From NCBI RefSeq assembly GCF_003268005.1, contig NZ_CP014213.1:1922001-1986000 (forward strand): 64,000 nucleotides of DNA, given 5' to 3'. How positions within the stretch are numbered: position 1 is the stretch's first letter; every line of letters starts with the position of its first letter. Positions 54,174 through 63,716 of this stretch are shown here, piece after piece. Both the position numbers and the translations under genes were made by a program. Below the pieces are notes generated by a model. The model made no database searches and was not told the DNA's origin. It saw nothing but the letters and a program-made list of their open reading frames with translations. This DNA is from Methanosphaera sp. BMS (GTDB taxonomy: Archaea; Methanobacteriota; Methanobacteria; Methanobacteriales; Methanobacteriaceae).

Positions 54174-54278
54174 TTAATACATTTTAGTGCTTTTTTCATG
54201 GATTTGTAATACAAAACAAAGTATTTATAATACAAACAATATAATTTAAATTAATAATATACATTACAATAGTAATAC
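54174..54278. promoter_or_regulatory. Cluster of GTAATAC-like boxes between purD and the GNAT gene
   Basis: Boxes: TTAATAC 54174-54180, GTAATAC 54206-54212, ATAATAC 54227-54233, GTAATAC 54272-54278. The first two are 32 bases apart, the same spacing as in the box pairs before the ABC importer at 60.1-60.3 kb, and both first boxes are followed by ATTTTA. GTAATA 54206-54211 is followed after 16 bases by TAATAC, one base off a GTAATA-N16-TATTAC palindrome. Also ATTAC-N4-GTAAT at 54263-54276. It could control the GNAT gene, purD or both. Confidence 0.5.
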
Positions 54279-54321
54279 AAATGTGTGTTAAATCAGGCAA
54301 AAAGTAATAACGTGAGTAAAT

Positions 54322-54888
54322 ATGAATCTTGAAATAATAGAACTAAAAGAAAAACACCTATCAGAATACCAAGTAGAAGACTTCATTTTTAAAATGATAA
54401 AGGAAAGCTACGGTTTAGATTACGTGCCGGAATATCATTTTGATGTGATTGACTTGAAAAACTATTATATAAATCCATCAAAAAATAACCTATTCATGGT
54501 AATAGATAAAGACAACAATCAATTAATTGCTACAGCCGCGGTAAGAGGTTATGACAGAAACGACAACATAAAAAACAGAAACTATAACCTAAACAGCACG
54601 GCCAGCATCTACAGATTATTCGTTAAAAAAGAATACAGACACAATAAAATCGCTACAAGACTACTTAGAAAAATAGAAGATTTCTGCAGAGAAAAAGAAT
54701 ATAATGAAATATATTTACACACACAAAAAGACAGTTATGGTGCATTGGCATTCTGGCTACATCAAGAATATGAAATAGTAGATGACACACACGATTCAAT
54801 GGGAACAATACACATGGAAAAGGTATTGAATAAAAATGTATACAAGTTAACCTCCATAAATGAAGTAGAAGACAAGATAGAATCATAA
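54322..54888 (+). CDS. GNAT-family N-acetyltransferase
   Basis: 188 aa. YRLFVKKEYRHNKIATRLLRKIEDFCREKEYNEIYLHT is the acetyl-CoA binding motif A (the Q/RxxGxG/A loop here as RHNKIA), followed by ALAFWLHQEYEIV. Central strands begin LFMVIDKDNNQLIATAAVRGY. It transfers an acetyl group to an amine; the substrate is unknown. SD GTGAG precedes the ATG. The box cluster upstream links it to the ABC importer next door, so a role in metal or peptide handling is possible. Confidence 0.8.
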   Translation: MNLEIIELKEKHLSEYQVEDFIFKMIKESYGLDYVPEYHFDVIDLKNYYINPSKNNLFMVIDKDNNQLIATAAVRGYDRNDNIKNRNYNLNSTASIYRLFVKKEYRHNKIATRLLRKIEDFCREKEYNEIYLHTQKDSYGALAFWLHQEYEIVDDTHDSMGTIHMEKVLNKNVYKLTSINEVEDKIES

Positions 54889-54986: not shown

Positions 54987-55592
54987 TTAATCTGTAATAT
55001 CCCGTAAATAGATTATATCATCACATATACGATTTAATAACTTTTTATCGTGACTGACTACAAGTACACCCACCTTGTTTTTACGAGCCACAGTCAACAG
55101 GCTTTTCCATATTTGTACCTGTGTAACAGCATCAAGCATAGTACTAATCTCATCGGCTATTATAAACTGTGTCTTTGGATTTAACGCTCTTAATATGCTA
55201 AAACGCTGCAGTTCTCCACCGGATAGCTCTGAAGGATATCTGTCAAACCATTCCTTTTTGATACCGAATTCATCCAGTATATTATCGTCAGGCATCCACG
55301 ACTCCTCAAGTACGTCCTTCATCTTCCAGCGAGGATTCATAACCTTTTCAGGATGTTGATAAATCAACTGAATAGGATTATATCCTTTTTTATATTTTTG
55401 GTCATTGACCGTGACACTGCCTTCATAATCCTTTATAAATCCAGTCAATACCTTACAGAGAGTACTTTTTCCAGAACCGCTGTCACCGAACAACCCTATT
55501 ACCTGCTCGTTATTCATCTCAAAATTCAGATTCTTGAGAATTTGATGTGAACCATAACCGAAACTAACATTTTCCGCTTTCAATACATTCAT
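54987..55592 (-). CDS. Nickel/oligopeptide-type ABC importer, second ATPase (operon A)
   Basis: 201 aa. Walker A GLFGDSGSGKST at about 34-45, Q-loop QLIYQHPEKVMNP, signature LSGGELQRFSILRAL and Walker B FIIADEISTMLDAVTQ. Short ATPase without the usual Opp C-terminal domain, of the NikE/CntF kind. SD GGTGATT precedes the ATG. Last gene of the five-gene operon A; pairs with the ATPase at 55595. The paralogue in operon B is at 60311. Confidence 0.9.
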   Translation of the reverse strand: MNVLKAENVSFGYGSHQILKNLNFEMNNEQVIGLFGDSGSGKSTLCKVLTGFIKDYEGSVTVNDQKYKKGYNPIQLIYQHPEKVMNPRWKMKDVLEESWMPDDNILDEFGIKKEWFDRYPSELSGGELQRFSILRALNPKTQFIIADEISTMLDAVTQVQIWKSLLTVARKNKVGVLVVSHDKKLLNRICDDIIYLRDITD

Positions 55593-55594
55593 AT

Positions 55595-56545
55595 CTAATC
55601 ACCATCCACCAATGGATTGAAACAACGGATAACCGTTCCATTTACCTCTCTAAGTTCGGGAATTTCATAGTGACACTCCCTTACCTGATGAGGACAGTTT
55701 TCATGATATGGACATCCCTTCGGTATATGCAAATAGGAAGGCTGATGACCCTCGGTCAGTTCAAACTCGGTTTCCGGAAGAGCCCTGTAAAGAGACCTTG
55801 TATATGGATGAAGTAATTTTTCACCATTTCCGGAGAAGTTTTTGGTATCCGTAATCTCTATAACATAACCCAAGTATAATATTGCTATTCTATCACTGGT
55901 TTTTATAGCAGTATATATGTCATGGGTAATGAGTATCATACCAATACCCCTTTCCTTTAGCTCTATGAGATTGTTGATTGTTTCTTCAACCGCATGTTCA
56001 TCAAGACCGGGCGTCGGTTCATCGGCTATTATTATTTCAGGATCATTAAGCAATGCAGTTGATATTAAAACCTTACGTGCCATTCCACCCGACAACTGGA
56101 AGGGATACATTTCATCAACTTCGTCGGATAAATTATATTGATTGAAAATTTCTCTCTGCTTTTTAAGTACTTCCTCTTTTTTATCCTCATCATCAATATA
56201 ACCTATTGCCTGCTCCTTAACTTTCATCAAGGGATTTAAGTTATTTACTGATTGTGGAATAAAACTTATCTTATTACCCCTTAGTTCTTGCTTAAATTCA
56301 TCATCCATTTCTTTGCCCTTATACCGTATACTACCCGATACTTTGGCATTTGTTGGCAATATGCCTAGGATTGCATGTGCAAGCAAACTTTTTCCAGAAC
56401 CACTACTTCCAAGAACAGCCAATATTTCATGATCATCAACATCCATCGTCAAATCAGATAATACCTTTAGTTCTCTCTGCTGGAGACCTTTGAAGTATTG
56501 TGAGAAAGAAATTGATAACTTTTCTACTTCCAATAATTTACTCAT
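55595..56545 (-). CDS. Nickel/oligopeptide-type ABC importer, first ATPase (operon A)
   Basis: 316 aa from ATG 56545 (SD AGGTG). Walker A AVLGSSGSGKSLLAHAIL, signature LSGGMARKVLIS, Walker B IIADEPTPGLDEHAVEETI. The C-terminal extension carries the oligopeptide-transporter cysteine pattern CPYHENCPHQVREC...C, which in DppD/OppF-like proteins can bind an Fe-S cluster. It powers import together with the ATPase at 54987. Two bases separate the genes. Confidence 0.92.
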   Translation of the reverse strand: MSKLLEVEKLSISFSQYFKGLQQRELKVLSDLTMDVDDHEILAVLGSSGSGKSLLAHAILGILPTNAKVSGSIRYKGKEMDDEFKQELRGNKISFIPQSVNNLNPLMKVKEQAIGYIDDEDKKEEVLKKQREIFNQYNLSDEVDEMYPFQLSGGMARKVLISTALLNDPEIIIADEPTPGLDEHAVEETINNLIELKERGIGMILITHDIYTAIKTSDRIAILYLGYVIEITDTKNFSGNGEKLLHPYTRSLYRALPETEFELTEGHQPSYLHIPKGCPYHENCPHQVRECHYEIPELREVNGTVIRCFNPLVDGD

Positions 56546-56554
56546 TCTAAACAC

Positions 56555-57418
56555 CTACTCTTGTGCACTTTGCGGATCCAATAATTTATGCACATTTTCA
56601 CCTATTAAGTCAAACAACAGTACCAGGAATAATAATGCTAAACCCGGATAGAAGGCTAGCCACCAATATCCCATACTAAGATATTTCATTGATTCCGATA
56701 GGATAATACCAATGGCCGGTTCATGAGCCGGCAATCCAAAACCTAAGAATGAAATACTTGCTTCGTGCATAATTGCATGAGGGAACATCAATATTACCCC
56801 TACAATAATTTGTGATATTATAAGTGGGAATATGTGTTTTTTAGCTATCCACATTTTAGATTTTCCGAATTCATTTGATAGTTTGATGTATTCACTGGTA
56901 TTGATTTTCTTAATTTCTGCTCTGAGTACCCTGGCAAGCGGGGTCCAGTGGGTTAAACCTACGGCCATAATAACACCATAATAACCTCCACCAAATGCAA
57001 GAGATACCAATATTATTAACAGTATGTGAGGAATTGAACCGAACAAGTCAATTACTGCAGTTACCAATTCATCAACCAAGGTATTGACGCTGGAGAATAC
57101 GCCTAAGATTATTGCAACTATGGTACTTATTACTGATGCAAATGCTCCCACACCTATACTTATTCCAAGACCAAGTAATGTACGCATGAACATATCCCTT
57201 CCCATCCAATCGGTACCAAACCAATGCTCAAAGGATGGTGGTTGATTTATATTATAGAAATTACTTGTAAGTACGGCGGTATGATCAATAAAGTAATTAC
57301 TTATAAATACTGAAAATAGTATAATAAATGCAATGACTATTATAAGTAGAGTTTTTGTTCTTAAATTAAGATTTAAGATTCCTTTTTGTTTTTCTTTACT
57401 GTCTGTCAAGGTTCTCAT
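56555..57418 (-). CDS. Nickel/oligopeptide-type ABC importer, second permease (operon A)
   Basis: 287 aa from ATG 57418, overlapping the end of the first permease gene by 23 bases; GGGAG lies very close, so a slightly later TTG is also possible. Five to six membrane helices; FEHWFGTDWMGRDMFMRTLLGLGISIGVG and the EAA loop HEASISFLGFGLPAHEPAIGIILSES are typical of DppC/NikC. It forms the channel with the DppB-type permease. Confidence 0.9.
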   Translation of the reverse strand: MRTLTDSKEKQKGILNLNLRTKTLLIIVIAFIILFSVFISNYFIDHTAVLTSNFYNINQPPSFEHWFGTDWMGRDMFMRTLLGLGISIGVGAFASVISTIVAIILGVFSSVNTLVDELVTAVIDLFGSIPHILLIILVSLAFGGGYYGVIMAVGLTHWTPLARVLRAEIKKINTSEYIKLSNEFGKSKMWIAKKHIFPLIISQIIVGVILMFPHAIMHEASISFLGFGLPAHEPAIGIILSESMKYLSMGYWWLAFYPGLALLFLVLLFDLIGENVHKLLDPQSAQE

Positions 57419-58388
57419 TCTCCCTAATTCTTGGATCAACAAAGTAGTACATTATATCCGCCAGTAGATTTCCTACAAATACAAATACTGCACTTATCAA
57501 TACGATACCCAAGAGTAACGTAACATCACTTTGTAGTCCTGCAGCTACAGCCGTTTGTCCTATTCCAGGATAAGAAAATACCTGTTCTACTAGTACTGCT
57601 CCACCAAATAGTTCTGCAAAGTTCTGGAACTGTAATGTCAATGCAGGTAAGAGCACATTTCTTAATGCTTGTCTCTCAATCAATGGCCAGCCACTTTCTC
57701 CTCTAGCTCTGGCAAACAAGATATAATCTGAGGACAATACATTTACCAATTCATTTCTGGTATACATTGCAATAGGAGCTACTCCAACCAAACTTAAAGT
57801 CAACGTCGGCAGTACCAGCCGTGCAAGCCACTGCCATATTGTAGCATCCGAGCTAACCGTTCCTATGGCAACACTCATCCCTATAGGGAACCATCCCAGC
57901 TCTACCGAGAATATGATTAAAATAACCAATCCTATCCAGAATGAAGGTGCTGACTGTAGGATATAACAGTATAGTTTTACCAGTTTATCTATCCAGCTAC
58001 CCTTATTTTTTCCGGCAACTATTCCCAATCCAAATCCAAGCAATCCGCTAAGTACCCATGAAATTGCCATTAAGACAAAAGATGCCATGAATCTTTCTTT
58101 AATAACATCTATAACTGGTATACGATATATTAAAGAGTTTCCAAGGTTTCCCTGTAATAAGTTACATAGCCAACCCCAGACTTTAGTAATCAGTGGCTGA
58201 TTCACGCCCCAGTACTGTTCTAGAACAATCCTTTGTTCCGGGCTGATTACGGCTTGTTTAAGATAAGCATTTACGGGATCTATAGGAGATAATTCAAGTA
58301 ATATAAAACTAAAAATAGCTACTGCAAACATTAAGACTATGAAATGAATTGCTTTATTTCTAATAAATTTTTTTGTTTTATTATTCAA
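57396..58388 (-). CDS. Nickel/oligopeptide-type ABC importer, first permease (operon A)
   Basis: 330 aa, TTG start at 58388 after AGGAGG. Six membrane helices with the DppB/NikB N-terminal PIDPVNAYLKQAVISPEQRIVLEQYWGVNQPL and C-terminal ELFGGAVLVEQVFSYPGIGQTAVAAGLQSD. ends FVDPRIRENENLDRQ. Confidence 0.9.
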   Translation of the reverse strand: MNNKTKKFIRNKAIHFIVLMFAVAIFSFILLELSPIDPVNAYLKQAVISPEQRIVLEQYWGVNQPLITKVWGWLCNLLQGNLGNSLIYRIPVIDVIKERFMASFVLMAISWVLSGLLGFGLGIVAGKNKGSWIDKLVKLYCYILQSAPSFWIGLVILIIFSVELGWFPIGMSVAIGTVSSDATIWQWLARLVLPTLTLSLVGVAPIAMYTRNELVNVLSSDYILFARARGESGWPLIERQALRNVLLPALTLQFQNFAELFGGAVLVEQVFSYPGIGQTAVAAGLQSDVTLLLGIVLISAVFVFVGNLLADIMYYFVDPRIRENENLDRQ

Positions 58389-58472
58389 AAATAAAAGCCT
58401 CCTAATAAAAAAAATGATAATTAAAAGTATGGTGATACCTTTAATTATCTTGTTAAAGTTTTTTTTATATGA

Positions 58473-60092
58473 TTATTTACGTTTCCAGTCAAGGATATTA
58501 CAGTAATAATCCTGACCTAATTTGGATAATGTTCCCATGTCAACATTGTCTTTTACGAAGTATCCGAAGTGGTTGTCTGCTGCCCATAGCCATGGTGCAT
58601 CACCATTAGGACCGAATCCTCCACTTCCTGTGTATGCTGCCTTACTCCAGTATTGATTTGCATCTTCTAGGCTTCCGGCCTGCATACCCTGTTCGAGGAT
58701 TGCATCCACTTCTGAATTGTTATATGCGTTAGGGTTTCTGTAATCGGATTCCAGGTATCCTTCCTTATCCTTACTTAGGTATTGTTGATATACTGCTGAG
58801 TATGGGTTATCTGAGGATTGTTGCATTACTACTGCCTGTGAATACATTTTGGTGTAAATTGTATCCCAGTCGGCTGATTTAAGTACTACTTCAATACCCA
58901 GATCTTTAGCCTGTTCGGATATGATTGTTGCAAGGGATTGTCTGTCTTCTTTGTTAGGTGGATAATATACTTCAAATGATGCTTTTACACCATCTTTTTC
59001 TCTTATTCCATCACCATCGGTATCTTTCCATCCGGCTTCTTCCAATATTTTTTTAGCTTCATCCGGCTTGTTGTCTGTTACTTTAGCTTGTTCATTGGCA
59101 AATGGCAGTGAGTCTACTCCGGTATATTCTGCTTTTCCAAATCCTTTATATACTGATTCTACTATAGCTTCACGATTTATTCCTATGTTTAATGCTTTTC
59201 TTATTGCTGGATCTGAGGTTACGTTGTTACCTACAGGGTTTCCATTGTCTGTCTTGAGTCCGGTATCAGGTAGGTATGGTAATGAGAATCCTTGTGCCCT
59301 TGGACTTTCGAATTCTACCAGTTTGTATCCTTCTACTGTTTCGTTGTATGCTGAAATTGGTGCTTCAGCCACATCGATTTGACCTGATTTTACCATTTGT
59401 AAGACATTGTCCTCTTCAGGGAAGACCATGGTAATCTGTTTGAAGTATGGTTCCTTACCGTAGTATTGGTCGTTGTATTCAAATATTGCCTGTTGACCTT
59501 TATCCCATTGTTTGAGTTTATATGGTCCTGAACCTATTGGGTTTGCACCATATGATTCGTTATTATAGTCTTTTTCAGGTACTATACCAACATATCTCAA
59601 ATCATAAATGAATGTGGATTGTGGTTTTTTAAGCTTAAATTCAACAGTAGTATCATTGACTGCTTTTGCTTCCTCCAAATTGGTAAGGTCAAGTTCCCCG
59701 TCACTTACTTTTGCTTCGTTGAAGGTGAAGGCAACATCTTTTGCCGTCAATGTTTCGTTGTTCGTGAATTTTACATCATCTCTAATGTTTACCGTCCAAG
59801 TTAACCTATCCTCACTGATAGTGTAATTTGTCGCTAAGTCATTAACAAAACTACCATTTTCATCTGAACCGAATAATGTACTTTGAACTAATGGATTGAA
59901 GTTCAAGTGTCCATTACCCCACCCTGTCAGTGGGTTGAATCCTGTTTCAGGCTCTCCTGTATGTCCAGGTACCGTTATGACGATGTGAGTTGGATCATCG
60001 TCTGTACTGTTACCCAGCATTGAAGAAGCTGCAATAATAGCTATGATAATAACTGCTAATGCTATAATAGCATATTTTATCTTATTATCCAT
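58473..60092 (-). CDS. Nickel/oligopeptide-type ABC importer, substrate-binding protein (operon A)
   Basis: 539 aa, SBP family 5. N-terminal hydrophobic segment (about 7-27) acts as signal peptide or anchor; no lipobox cysteine is seen. GFNPLTGWGNGHLNFNPLVQSTLF, LTWTVNIRDDVKFTNNETLTAKDVAFTFN and GSGPYKLKQWDKGQQAIFEYNDQYYG match the OppA/NikA fold. Such proteins bind peptides, nickel chelates or opine metallophores outside the cell. A nickel role fits the need of methanogens for F430 and hydrogenases and the NikR-like operator upstream, but peptide import is not excluded. SD GGAGAAAT precedes the ATG. Confidence 0.88.
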   Translation of the reverse strand: MDNKIKYAIIALAVIIIAIIAASSMLGNSTDDDPTHIVITVPGHTGEPETGFNPLTGWGNGHLNFNPLVQSTLFGSDENGSFVNDLATNYTISEDRLTWTVNIRDDVKFTNNETLTAKDVAFTFNEAKVSDGELDLTNLEEAKAVNDTTVEFKLKKPQSTFIYDLRYVGIVPEKDYNNESYGANPIGSGPYKLKQWDKGQQAIFEYNDQYYGKEPYFKQITMVFPEEDNVLQMVKSGQIDVAEAPISAYNETVEGYKLVEFESPRAQGFSLPYLPDTGLKTDNGNPVGNNVTSDPAIRKALNIGINREAIVESVYKGFGKAEYTGVDSLPFANEQAKVTDNKPDEAKKILEEAGWKDTDGDGIREKDGVKASFEVYYPPNKEDRQSLATIISEQAKDLGIEVVLKSADWDTIYTKMYSQAVVMQQSSDNPYSAVYQQYLSKDKEGYLESDYRNPNAYNNSEVDAILEQGMQAGSLEDANQYWSKAAYTGSGGFGPNGDAPWLWAADNHFGYFVKDNVDMGTLSKLGQDYYCNILDWKRK

Positions 60093-60138: not shown

Positions 60139-60289
60139 GTAATACATTTTACCCAAAATGGACTAAAAAAGTAATACATGTCATAAATTAATTATTACAT
60201 ATGTTTAGTTTAATTAAACTTGTATTTAAATATTACTTTAATAAGATAAAGTAATACGATTAGGGCAAAAATCAATTAAAAAGTAATAC
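60139..60289 (-). promoter_or_regulatory. Four GTAATAC boxes upstream of ABC operon A
   Basis: GTAATAC on the plus strand at 60139-60145, 60171-60177, 60251-60257 and 60283-60289. The boxes form two pairs with 32-base spacing; the sequence between the boxes of the two pairs is also partly alike (AAGTAATAC, then TTA, CAAAA, TAAAAA, GTAATAC), so the pair may have arisen by duplication. 32 bases is three helix turns, which would suit cooperative binding on one face. The first boxes lie within 100 bases of the SBP start. Confidence 0.65.
60171..60198. promoter_or_regulatory. NikR-like palindrome GTAATA-N16-TATTAC
   Basis: GTAATA at 60171-60176 and TATTAC at 60193-60198 are perfect inverted half-sites with 16 bases between them, 28 bp in total. 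The E. coli NikR operator is GTATGA-N16-TCATAC, the same geometry with a related half-site. It overlaps the likely TATA region (AATTAATTTATGA on the minus strand), as expected for a nickel-dependent repressor. That NikR binds here is inference. Confidence 0.55.
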
Positions 60290-60310: not shown

Positions 60311-60922
60311 TTATATCTGATTTATTTCATTGAACAAAACAATGTCATCAGATATAACTTCCAACAAATCCTTATCGTGACTTACTGCAAGTATGCCTAT
60401 GTCGTTTTTCATACAGTAGTCAATCAAGGAATCCCATATCTGTACTTGCGTAACGGCGTCAAGCATCGTGGTTATTTCATCGGCAATAATAAATTTGGTC
60501 TTTGGATTCAATGCCCTGAGAATACTGAATCTCTGCAGTTCTCCACCGGAGAGTTCACTGGGCCATCTTGTCATCCAACTGTCCTTCAAACCGAAAGTTT
60601 CCTTCAGTTGGTCGGGAGGATTCCAGGACTCTCTAAGTACCTTATTCATTTTCCATTTAGGATTCATGGTTTTTTCAGGGTGCTGGAATATCAGCTGAAC
60701 CGGACAATAGCCTTTCTTATCTATGGCCTTTTCATCCAATGTAACAGTTCCGCTATAATTATCTATATACCCAGCAATTATCTTGCATAAGGTACTTTTT
60801 CCACTACCGCTATCGCCCATCAAACCAATGACCTTATCGTGACTTACCGAAATAGATAGATTTTTTAATATTGGCTTGTTCTTCTTATATGCAAACGAAA
60901 TGTTTTCAGCCTTGAGAGTCAT
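60311..60922 (-). CDS. Nickel/oligopeptide-type ABC importer, second ATPase (operon B)
   Basis: 203 aa, close paralogue of the ATPase at 54987 (shared QLIFQHPEKTMNPKWKM, LSGGELQRFSILRALNPKTKFIIADEITTMLDAVTQVQIW). Walker A GLMGDSGSGKST. SD GGAGG precedes the ATG, inside the end of the first ATPase gene, which it overlaps by 17 bases. Last gene of operon B; its stop is 219 bases before the SBP start of operon A, in front of the GTAATAC boxes. Confidence 0.9.
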   Translation of the reverse strand: MTLKAENISFAYKKNKPILKNLSISVSHDKVIGLMGDSGSGKSTLCKIIAGYIDNYSGTVTLDEKAIDKKGYCPVQLIFQHPEKTMNPKWKMNKVLRESWNPPDQLKETFGLKDSWMTRWPSELSGGELQRFSILRALNPKTKFIIADEITTMLDAVTQVQIWDSLIDYCMKNDIGILAVSHDKDLLEVISDDIVLFNEINQI

Positions 60923-61862
60923 CTTCTACCTCCTTGCTATAGTTATGACAACGTATCATTACACCATCGACATCTATAAGCTCCGGTTTAACGTTTTGAC
61001 AAATGTCTTTTCTTACAGGGCAATTTTCATAGTAAACGCATCCTTGAACTTCTTCCAATGGCTGCACACCCTTTGTTAATTTAAAACCGTTCTTAGGTAG
61101 AGCTTCCATTAATGATTTCGTATAAGGATGCAGCAGCTTATTGACATCCCTGAAGTTTTCCGTATTATTAATCTCGATTACGTATCCGGAATAAAATATG
61201 GCTATTCTGTCGGCGGTCTCCAAGGCCACCTTTATATCATGGGTAATCAATAGAACGCCTTTTCCTTCATCCTTTAAAGCTTTGATATCCTTAACGGTCT
61301 CCTCAACACTTTTTTCATCCAAACCCGGCGTCGGTTCATCTGCTATCAATAAGTCCGGATTGTCCAGCAATGCCGTGGACAAGAGTACCTTTCTTGCCAT
61401 CCCCCCGGACAGTTCAAATGGATACAAATCATCAACGCTTTCGTCCAATCCATATTTGGCGAATACTTCCCTTTGATGAAGCTTCTTCCTATCGTATTCA
61501 TCCTCATCTTCACATTCTCCAATTGCTTGCTGAGAAACTTTCATTAATGGATCTAAAAAATTAACGGACTGTGGAATCAGACAAATCTCCTTACCGCGTA
61601 TCTCTTCCTTTAAATTTTGATCCAATACTTTTCCTTTATATTTTATTTCTCCTATAACATTAGCATTATAAGGTAAAATTCCTAGAATTGAATGGGCTAA
61701 AAGACTTTTACCTGAACCGCTTGAACCTAATACTGCAACAATTTCATGTTCATCAACATCAATAGTTAAGTCAGATATTACTTTAAGTTCATGACGATTC
61801 AAACCTTGAACATATTGAGTAAAGGATATTGATAAATTATTTACTTCTAATAATTTTTCCAT
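60906..61862 (-). CDS. Nickel/oligopeptide-type ABC importer, first ATPase (operon B)
   Basis: 318 aa from ATG 61862 (SD GGTGG). Walker A AVLGSSGSGKSLLAHSIL, signature LSGGMARKVLLS, Walker B LIADEPTPGLDEKSVEETV; C-terminal cysteines CVYYENCPVRKDIC...RCHN. Paralogue of 55595, with the same order of domains. Confidence 0.92.
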   Translation of the reverse strand: MEKLLEVNNLSISFTQYVQGLNRHELKVISDLTIDVDEHEIVAVLGSSGSGKSLLAHSILGILPYNANVIGEIKYKGKVLDQNLKEEIRGKEICLIPQSVNFLDPLMKVSQQAIGECEDEDEYDRKKLHQREVFAKYGLDESVDDLYPFELSGGMARKVLLSTALLDNPDLLIADEPTPGLDEKSVEETVKDIKALKDEGKGVLLITHDIKVALETADRIAIFYSGYVIEINNTENFRDVNKLLHPYTKSLMEALPKNGFKLTKGVQPLEEVQGCVYYENCPVRKDICQNVKPELIDVDGVMIRCHNYSKEVEDDSQG

Positions 61863-61876
61863 GAAAACCACCAAAC

Positions 61877-62728
61877 CTAGTTATTCGCTTCTGAAGGATC
61901 CAATAACCGTTTAAGGTTATCACCTATAATGTCAAACAATAATACAACTATTAATAATGCAATTCCTGGGAAGAATGCTAACCACCAGGCGCCCATTGCA
62001 AGATAAGACATTGATTCTGACAATATTATACCAATAGCAGGTTCATGTGGTGATAAACCAAATCCTAAGAAAGTAACACTTGATTCATGCATAATTGCAT
62101 GAGGAAATACCAATAAAGTACCTACAAATACTTGAGATAATACTAAAGGCAGTATATGTTCTTTTGCTATCCATAACTTACTTTTACCAAATTTTCCTGA
62201 TAAGGCAACATATTCAGATGTGTTAATTTGCATTATCTCCGCTCTCAACACTCTTGTTAAATTAATCCAGTGCGAAAATGCCACTGCCATTGTGACTCCA
62301 AAAGCACCCTTTCCTAATGCGATAGATATCATCATTATTAATAAGATATGAGGTATTGATGCGAACAAATCAATTAACCATGCAACTACTTCGTCAGAAA
62401 GTCTGTTTATACTTGAAATGAATGCCAGTATAACTGCAATAATACTGCTTATTATAGAAGCACCCAATCCAATGATTATACTTAAACTTAAACCTTTTAC
62501 CGTTCTTATGAACATGTCCCTACCCATCCAGTCAGTACCAAAAATATGCTCAAAGGATGGGGGTTGCATTTTTATAGCAAAATTTGTGGGTAAATTTGCA
62601 TCAATCATTAAACCCGATACAAAAATTATTAATAAAGCGAAAGCTGTAAGTCCTATGGTTAATAATGTTTTTTGTCTTAGATTTAATGAGCTGAATAAAC
62701 CTTTATTATACCATGGCAGTTCAGTCAT
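61877..62728 (-). CDS. Nickel/oligopeptide-type ABC importer, second permease (operon B)
   Basis: 283 aa from ATG 62728, with AAGGAG upstream; the ATGACTGA overlap with the previous gene shows coupling. FEHIFGTDWMGRDMFIRTVKGLSLSIIIG and HESSVTFLGFGLSPHEPAIGIILSES are the DppC/NikC motifs, close to the operon A copy. Confidence 0.9.
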   Translation of the reverse strand: MTELPWYNKGLFSSLNLRQKTLLTIGLTAFALLIIFVSGLMIDANLPTNFAIKMQPPSFEHIFGTDWMGRDMFIRTVKGLSLSIIIGLGASIISSIIAVILAFISSINRLSDEVVAWLIDLFASIPHILLIMMISIALGKGAFGVTMAVAFSHWINLTRVLRAEIMQINTSEYVALSGKFGKSKLWIAKEHILPLVLSQVFVGTLLVFPHAIMHESSVTFLGFGLSPHEPAIGIILSESMSYLAMGAWWLAFFPGIALLIVVLLFDIIGDNLKRLLDPSEANN

Positions 62729-63716
62729 CGTCAACACTCCTTATTCTTGGATCAACATACTGATAAATTATATCAGCAATAAAGTTTCCCACATATACAA
62801 AAATTGTACTGACTATTACAATTCCCAATAATAAGGGTACATCTGATCTTAATCCTGCCGCTACAGTTGCCTGACCTATTCCAGGGTATGCAAATACCTG
62901 TTCAACAAGGATTGTTCCACCAAATAATTCATTAAATGATAGGAATTGCAAGGTAATGGCCGGAAGCAATACATTTCTAATTCCATGATTTTTTATCATT
63001 CCCCAAAAGCTTTCACCTCTGGCTTGAGCAAATAGGAAATAATCACTTTTCTTAACGTTGATAAGTTTATCCCGGGTATACATGGTAATGGAAGCAATTC
63101 CTACAACACTTAATGTTATTGCAGGCAATATTAATCTGTATAACCATTGCCAGAAAGTTACAGTATCTGATAATTGTCCGATAGGAACCGATAGACCTAT
63201 AGGGAACCAGCCTAAATATACCGAGAAGACCATTAAAAATACAAGTCCTATCCAAAAGGTTGGTGATGCCTGTAATATGTAACAATATGTTTTAATTATT
63301 TTATCTGTCAATGTACCTTCCTTTGCTCCGGCAAGTATACCTAACCCAAAACCAACTACTGCAGATATTAACCAGGATGTAACCATAAGTGTTAATGAAG
63401 CTGTGAATTTTTGCATGATTACTTCTGTAACGGGTACTCTGAATATTAATGAAAAACCCATACTTCCGGAAGCCAGTGTCTTTAACCATCCTAATACTCT
63501 TTCAGATAAAGTTAAATCTGTACCCCAATAATGTCCAATGATAGCTAATTGCTCTTGACTAACTATCCTTTGACCAAGATATGCTTTAACAGGATCTATT
63601 GGAGATAATTGAATCATAATAAAACTAATAGAAGCTATAACTATCAGTAAAATGATTAATCGTACAATTTTAAATCCTAAAAATTTAGCTAATTTTTTGT
63701 TATTAATTTTAATCAT
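62721..63716 (-). CDS. Nickel/oligopeptide-type ABC importer, first permease (operon B)
   Basis: 331 aa. PIDPVKAYLGQRIVSQEQLAIIGHYWGTD and ELFGGTILVEQVFAYPGIGQATVAAGLRSD are DppB/NikB motifs, with six likely membrane helices. SD is weak (AAGAG). It follows the SBP gene of operon B after a hairpin with a U-tract. Confidence 0.9.
   Translation of the reverse strand: MIKINNKKLAKFLGFKIVRLIILLIVIASISFIMIQLSPIDPVKAYLGQRIVSQEQLAIIGHYWGTDLTLSERVLGWLKTLASGSMGFSLIFRVPVTEVIMQKFTASLTLMVTSWLISAVVGFGLGILAGAKEGTLTDKIIKTYCYILQASPTFWIGLVFLMVFSVYLGWFPIGLSVPIGQLSDTVTFWQWLYRLILPAITLSVVGIASITMYTRDKLINVKKSDYFLFAQARGESFWGMIKNHGIRNVLLPAITLQFLSFNELFGGTILVEQVFAYPGIGQATVAAGLRSDVPLLLGIVIVSTIFVYVGNFIADIIYQYVDPRIRSVDDD

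Follow-up and report, generated by a model that had tools for sequence, protein, structure and literature searches.

A GTAWTAC box array upstream of a nickel/peptide-type importer gene in Methanosphaera sp. BMS as a probable composite operator of the repressor NikR

Importer genes and box arrays in the window

We analyzed a stretch of 64,000 nucleotides of the Methanosphaera sp. BMS genome (the window), which contains two tandem paralogous importers of the nickel/peptide type, each with a box array (54987-60092; 60311-63716, together with L043 1313-2920). The nikA1 gene (58473-60092, minus strand) encodes, according to its NCBIfam matches, a substrate-binding protein of the nickel/peptide importer family. 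The matches to nickel_nikA (E 3e-44) and to the CntA-type model (E 1e-30) were both under the curated cut-offs, and with a nickel_nikA score of 151 bits against a cut-off of 393 the protein falls outside the equivalog of the nickel ABC importer NikABCDE; it is from regulation alone that we infer nickel specificity for this importer. The permease and ATPase genes of the nikA1 importer (nikB, C, D and E-like) occupy 54987-58388, and the second importer (nikE, D, C and B-like) 60311-63716, all on the minus strand. The substrate-binding protein gene of the second importer (nikA2) begins outside the window and carries boxes of its own, GTATTAC and GTAATAC, at a spacing of 31 bp.

Upstream of nikA1 (60139-60289), GTAATAC starts at plus-strand positions 60139, 60171, 60251 and 60283, forming two pairs with a spacing of 32 bp in each, as the earlier note had described. 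The first pair (module A, 60251-60289) lies upstream of the nikA1 core promoter, whose probable TATA box, TTTAAATA (60223-60230, minus strand), was read from the sequence and is matched by a GTAATATTTAAATA-type element kept in close relatives. The second pair (module B, 60139-60177) lies in the 5' leader of nikA1. Two weak, one-mismatch boxes stand between the modules: TTATTAC (60192-60198), 21 bp from the 60171 box, and its mirror image ATATTAC (60230-60236), 21 bp from the 60251 box. The former is the other half of a perfect GTAATA-N16-TATTAC palindrome (60171-60198), which had likewise been noted before and is indeed present. The six boxes thus show mirror symmetry, with steps of 32-21-38-21-32, and the steps before the orthologous gene are 32, 21, 39, 21 and 32 in G116 and G117, and 32, 21, 39, 21 and 31 in G126. 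These three genomes keep the 32-bp spacing of module A and have GTAATAT at the position equivalent to the 60230 box; module B is kept at about -85/-53 relative to nikA orthologues, and GTATTAA is the counterpart in relatives of the weak box 21 bp from it.

The boxes had been described as direct repeats, a reading that proved to be wrong. GTATTAC and GTAATAC are reverse complements of each other, which makes the box symmetric (GTAWTAC), and it is best read as the symmetric 9-mer A-GTAWTAC-T, in which "direct" and "inverted" differ by the central A/T alone. All four central A/T orientations were found in box pairs upstream of cbiM/nikM and nikA, so the pairing is not directional.

A second operator array of the same plan (54174-54310) is located upstream of a GNAT acetyltransferase gene (54322-54888, plus strand). 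It consists of TTAATAC at 54174, GTAATAC 32 bp further at 54206 and ATAATAC 21 bp further at 54227, followed by GTAATAC at 54272 and, after 32 bp, GTAATAA at 54304. The probable TATA element of this gene, TTTATA (54224-54229, plus strand), lies 11 nt after the 54206 box and follows a family-wide rule, in which TTTATA was found 10-11 nt after a box in 47 cases compared with about 1.6 expected per offset. A purine (purD) operator was considered for this array and rejected, since the array goes with GNAT, including GNAT orthologues that carry it without purD. GNAT orthologues adjoin nikA1 or nicotianamine synthase and have boxes in common with them; in G123, which we take to be M. stadtmanae, nikA1 and GNAT are divergent around an array with an exact 21-32 triple.

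Conservation of the box pairs in Methanobacteriales

In 139 Methanobacteriaceae genomes, the exact pattern GTAWTAC-N25-GTAWTAC occurred 463 times versus 5 for the reversed pattern (hand sums from the per-genome table), and 125 of the 139 genomes had such a pair. For an unbiased test, 64 regions were picked solely as upstream of cbiM/nikM orthologues. They held 251 exact boxes (1 in the reversed control), with at least one box in 62 of them, and the pair spacings were 32 (56 pairs) and 33 bp (27 pairs), then 43 and 11 bp; no exact 21-bp pair was found in these 64 regions. The 30 nikA upstream regions held 79 boxes versus 1 in the control, with 24 pairs at 32 bp and two exact pairs at 21 bp. No boxes were present at the second cbiM paralogues (n=6). 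The other two Methanobacteriales families mostly have TTATTAC-N26-GTAATAC (33-bp spacing) just before the cbiM TATA element, and the cbiM promoter of Methanothermobacter probably belongs to this type. In Candidatus Methanovirga, a termite-gut genus, the boxes at cbiM have been lost (L329, L330 and L331), which may be regarded as a natural loss; most of its genomes keep NikR, a point against regulation by NikR, and some have no NikR match.

In the host genome (2.87 Mb, single contig), whose cbiM is 84% identical to its nearest named counterpart, that of Methanosphaera sp. RGIG2546, a search for 32-bp pairs, as the earlier note had suggested, gave five exact pairs. The sites include nikA1, nikA2 (31 bp), cbiM (33 bp) and the cfbA/CbiX chelatase gene, all of which fit nickel targets; however, sites also lie before ilvB, pelota and surface protein genes, with no evident nickel link. 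Allowing one mismatch, 15 pairs were found versus just 5 in the reversed control, and both this small excess and the pairs before non-nickel genes count against regulation by NikR. The exact pair before ilvB (acetolactate synthase) is at L043 6752-6790, and that between pelota and a small unknown gene at L240 2520-2558. The CfbA/CbiX chelatase (L235 1669-2562; G000:C1 about 857968-858861) has a long His-rich loop, HSHSHSHSHEHGHHHHHHH; one 32-bp pair overlaps the start of its gene and another lies just upstream.

Among relatives, 72 genes face a pair, and 61 of them fall into nine recurrent families: cbiM, nikA, GNAT, cbiQ, nikD, a 4Fe-4S protein divergent from nikA, nicotianamine synthase, and a P-type metal ATPase and an EamA exporter that each have a His-rich tail. 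We regard all nine as metal-uptake or metallophore families. The targets in relatives are therefore those expected of a NikR operator, namely nickel uptake and use, and the proposal that a nickel importer is the target is borne out by boxes that precede a nickel ECF transporter and importers across the family. In two genomes, a 32-bp pair is also found about 420 bp upstream of a gene for a 179-aa protein (L091 1940-2479 and L104 1940-2479), whose L091 copy had no Pfam match.

NikR as the probable regulator

The earlier note had named NikR as the binding protein and counted the lack of a homologue in the genome as a refutation; a homologue was found (E 2.7e-30; PF08753, 106 bits). It has the RHH domain and the NikR_C domain with the H, HxH, C ligand pattern of the family; its closest solved relative is Pyrococcus NikR (E 1e-35), and in the alignment with 2bj1 the segments QHDY, LHIHM and C are conserved. 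NikR is present in 76 of 78 good family genomes, and its DNA-binding segment (MRISMSLPxKLLxxFDEVLxxRGYQSRSKGIRDAL) hardly varies within the family. Being near-universal, NikR cannot be singled out by co-occurrence. Only one box was found in 13 kb of nikR upstream regions, and autoregulation of nikR was rejected, as nikR has no upstream boxes, which also counts against the NikR reading.

The strongest evidence came from 70 cbiM/nikM loci outside Methanobacteriales (Methanomicrobiales, Methanosarcinales, Methanocellales, Pyrohabitans, Archaeoglobaceae and others, some of them bacterial). Here, 22 pairs of GTAWTAC/GTGTTAC-type boxes were found at a spacing of 21 bp, whereas 200 shuffles averaged 0.05 pairs per spacing and never gave more than 2 at 21 bp. 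Single pairs mix GTAWTAC with GTGTTAC/GTAACAC, five loci have a third box at 31 bp, and none of the 70 has a pair at 32 or 33 bp. The published NikR signal of delta-proteobacteria is GTGTTAC-N13/14-GTAACAC (PMC545781), from whose half-site GTAWTAC differs by one base. The outgroup archaea also have its arrangement of two half-sites two turns apart (7-13/14-7), whereas the dominant pair in our family is 7-25/26-7. Because the outgroup boxes sit at the published NikR spacing, the GTAWTAC half-site is very probably that of NikR, and the nikA1 site very probably a NikR operator in which one helical turn has been added to the dominant pair. The same can be said of Methanobacteriales, whose main operator is very probably a pair one turn longer than the outgroup form. 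The earlier suggestions that NikR is the binder and that the three-turn spacing is unusual are both supported.

On these sequence comparisons, it is likely that the array serves as a composite operator of the nickel-responsive repressor NikR, with two units flanking the nikA1 core promoter. Each A-GTAWTAC-T box would be the half-site for one two-fold symmetric ribbon-helix-helix dimer. The main unit would be a box pair three helical turns apart (32-33 bp), to which a weaker third box is often added at a distance of two turns (21 bp). With plentiful nickel, both flanking units would be occupied by Ni-NikR, which would block the assembly of TBP, TFB and RNA polymerase; when nickel is scarce, NikR would leave, and the importer and, in relatives, also the metallophore genes would be made. 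Binding and repression by NikR are thus predicted for the array, as is one tetramer, or a compact assembly, that would span the 32-bp pair on bent DNA. We put forward only tentatively, with less than even confidence, the fuller form of this model, in which a single NikR tetramer or fixed higher-order assembly would hold half-sites three turns apart on DNA bent by phased A/T and would run a nickel-metallophore regulon including nicotianamine synthase. If true, this three-turn grip would give NikR a second DNA-binding mode, derived in evolution from the two-turn one that other archaea still use. The dominant spacing of 32-33 bp counts against a NikR model in that it is not the known NikR footprint.

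Alternative arrangements and regulators

The geometry of the complex is the point on which an alternative fares best. It is possible, though we rather doubt it, that NikR binds without any single tetramer reaching across 32 bp; two tetramers would then lie side by side, each making a specific contact at one half-site and a second contact that is weak or non-specific, and 32 bp would reflect cooperative packing on the same face of the helix. Pair spacings do fall near helical multiples (11, 21, 32 and 43 bp), at nikA the inner strong box repeatedly has a weak box 21 bp from it, and triples of 21+31 bp occur in Methanosarcinales and Methanocellales; these weak boxes and triples leave room for side-by-side tetramers. 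However, a 21-bp partner box is lacking at most cbiM pairs, and inside the 32-bp pairs there are no residual half-sites at +11 or +21, for which reason interleaved tetramers at these positions were rejected as well. The spacers of 121 non-redundant 32-bp pairs point the same way: G+C is a few per cent beside the boxes, about 20-29% at positions of about 12-15 and 23-26, and low near the dyad. Such A/T content phased with the helix suggests bent DNA, and the symmetry of the phasing about a G+C-poor centre points to a single symmetric complex. AAATTT at the dyad was dropped as a discrete motif, and our claim is restricted to the G+C phasing, since its total was hardly above that of shuffled spacers. 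Spacer symmetry and the absence of half-sites inside the pairs tend to favour one complex per 32-bp pair.

It is unlikely that a metal-responsive regulator other than NikR binds the three-turn GTAWTAC pairs of Methanobacteriales. Such a factor would account for a spacing unlike the known NikR operator, cbiM could also be regulated by cobalt, and NikR is, as noted, too widespread for its co-occurrence to be informative; but in outgroup archaea the orthologous gene is preceded by the identical half-site at the canonical NikR spacing, conservation of the NikR DNA-binding segment matches that of the box, and a symmetric 7-bp box fits an RHH dimer. Slightly less probable still is that the boxes are activator sites, at which apo-NikR or another factor would recruit TFB/TBP at low nickel. 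One box commonly lies 10-11 nt upstream of TATA, immediately beyond the BRE, a position at which archaeal activators can bind. However, the second module is usually downstream of TATA, as at nikA, where the second box pair lies in the leader, where a repressor would be expected; the known action of NikR on nickel uptake genes is repression, and boxes on both sides of the nikA core promoter would make a repressor layout, in which occupancy is expected to exclude TBP/TFB and polymerase.

The earlier note had given weight to the 6-16-6 palindrome as a NikR site. This element is real and matches the E. coli NikR geometry exactly (the E. coli operator is GTATGA-N16-TCATAC), but it is a weaker, secondary pairing. 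GTAATA-N16-TATTAC occurs at five places in the host genome, one of them before cbiM, and the others include in-gene matches. We take the 32-bp pair to be the core because the second half of the 6-16-6 element (TTATTAC) is degenerate and exact 21-bp pairs are nearly absent from the cbiM and nikA regions of the family. With the 32-bp pairs as the conserved unit (463 versus 5), the palindrome alone was rejected as the operator, and it is very improbable that the outer boxes are incidental AT-rich matches. Finally, chance clustering of boxes in AT-rich intergenic DNA can be dismissed. The window has no marked excess of exact GTAATAC (13 boxes versus 10.5 expected), but the nikA1 array supplies the only exact 32-bp pairs among these 13 boxes, and neither four exact boxes nor two 32-bp pairs came up in any of 100,000 first-order Markov runs simulating the 220-bp intergenic region; the controlled family counts already refute chance clustering.

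Nickel-metallophore genes and comparison with known systems

Nickel is the limiting metal of methanogens, which need it for F430 and [NiFe]-hydrogenases. The composite NikR operator proposed here resembles bacterial NikR operators in its close seven-base half-sites (GTATTAC versus GTGTTAC), two-fold symmetric pairing, nickel transporter targets and a NikR encoded in the genome. It differs from them in that the dominant spacing in Methanobacteriaceae is 32-33 bp (three turns) rather than 21-22 bp, the 21-bp partner is weak or missing, the half-site is fully symmetric (AGTAWTACT) and several modules flank one promoter. H. pylori NikR, which acts on imperfect repeats at many promoters, likewise has a multi-target regulon beyond one importer, whereas the half-sites here are strictly conserved and their spacing is fixed. 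As cited in PMC10617489, Rodionov 2006 predicted NikR as regulator of nikMNQO in methanogens, with the same target gene family and the same named regulator as here. A search of the accessible literature for the box sequence returned nothing relevant. With a defined operator, a family-wide regulon and a natural contrast of two and three turns between archaeal orders, the conformation of NikR on DNA becomes directly testable.

The box regulon further links the archaeal nicotianamine synthase with the acquisition of nickel by gut methanogens. This enzyme was identified by PF03059 (E 1.6e-22), and boxes lie upstream at 13 of 30 loci; no exact box was found close upstream of the host's own NAS gene, which counts against the NikR reading. 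Nicotianamine synthase and GNAT genes are neighbours, often divergent with common boxes and often adjoining nikA-nikE (L077 549-2185; L205 1959-3597; L212; L217; L282 8392-10101; L287 976-2527). Such a locus is likely an archaeal nickel-metallophore locus, at which GNAT may modify the metallophore. As in the staphylopine/Cnt system, a nicotianamine synthase-like enzyme, an importer with a peptide/nickel-type substrate-binding protein and an EamA-type exporter appear under common control, here in relatives; the present system differs in being archaeal and in having a GNAT gene as recurrent partner. The P-type metal ATPase (L210 2873-4999) and the EamA transporter (L215 2723-3835) have His-rich C-terminal tails and boxes recurrently upstream, and they possibly export nickel or the metallophore. 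In G042, probably Methanobrevibacter smithii, the homology to nicotianamine synthase is split into two pieces about 1.4 kb apart (L286 1067-3268), so that the gene looks interrupted, and the boxes and GNAT remain.
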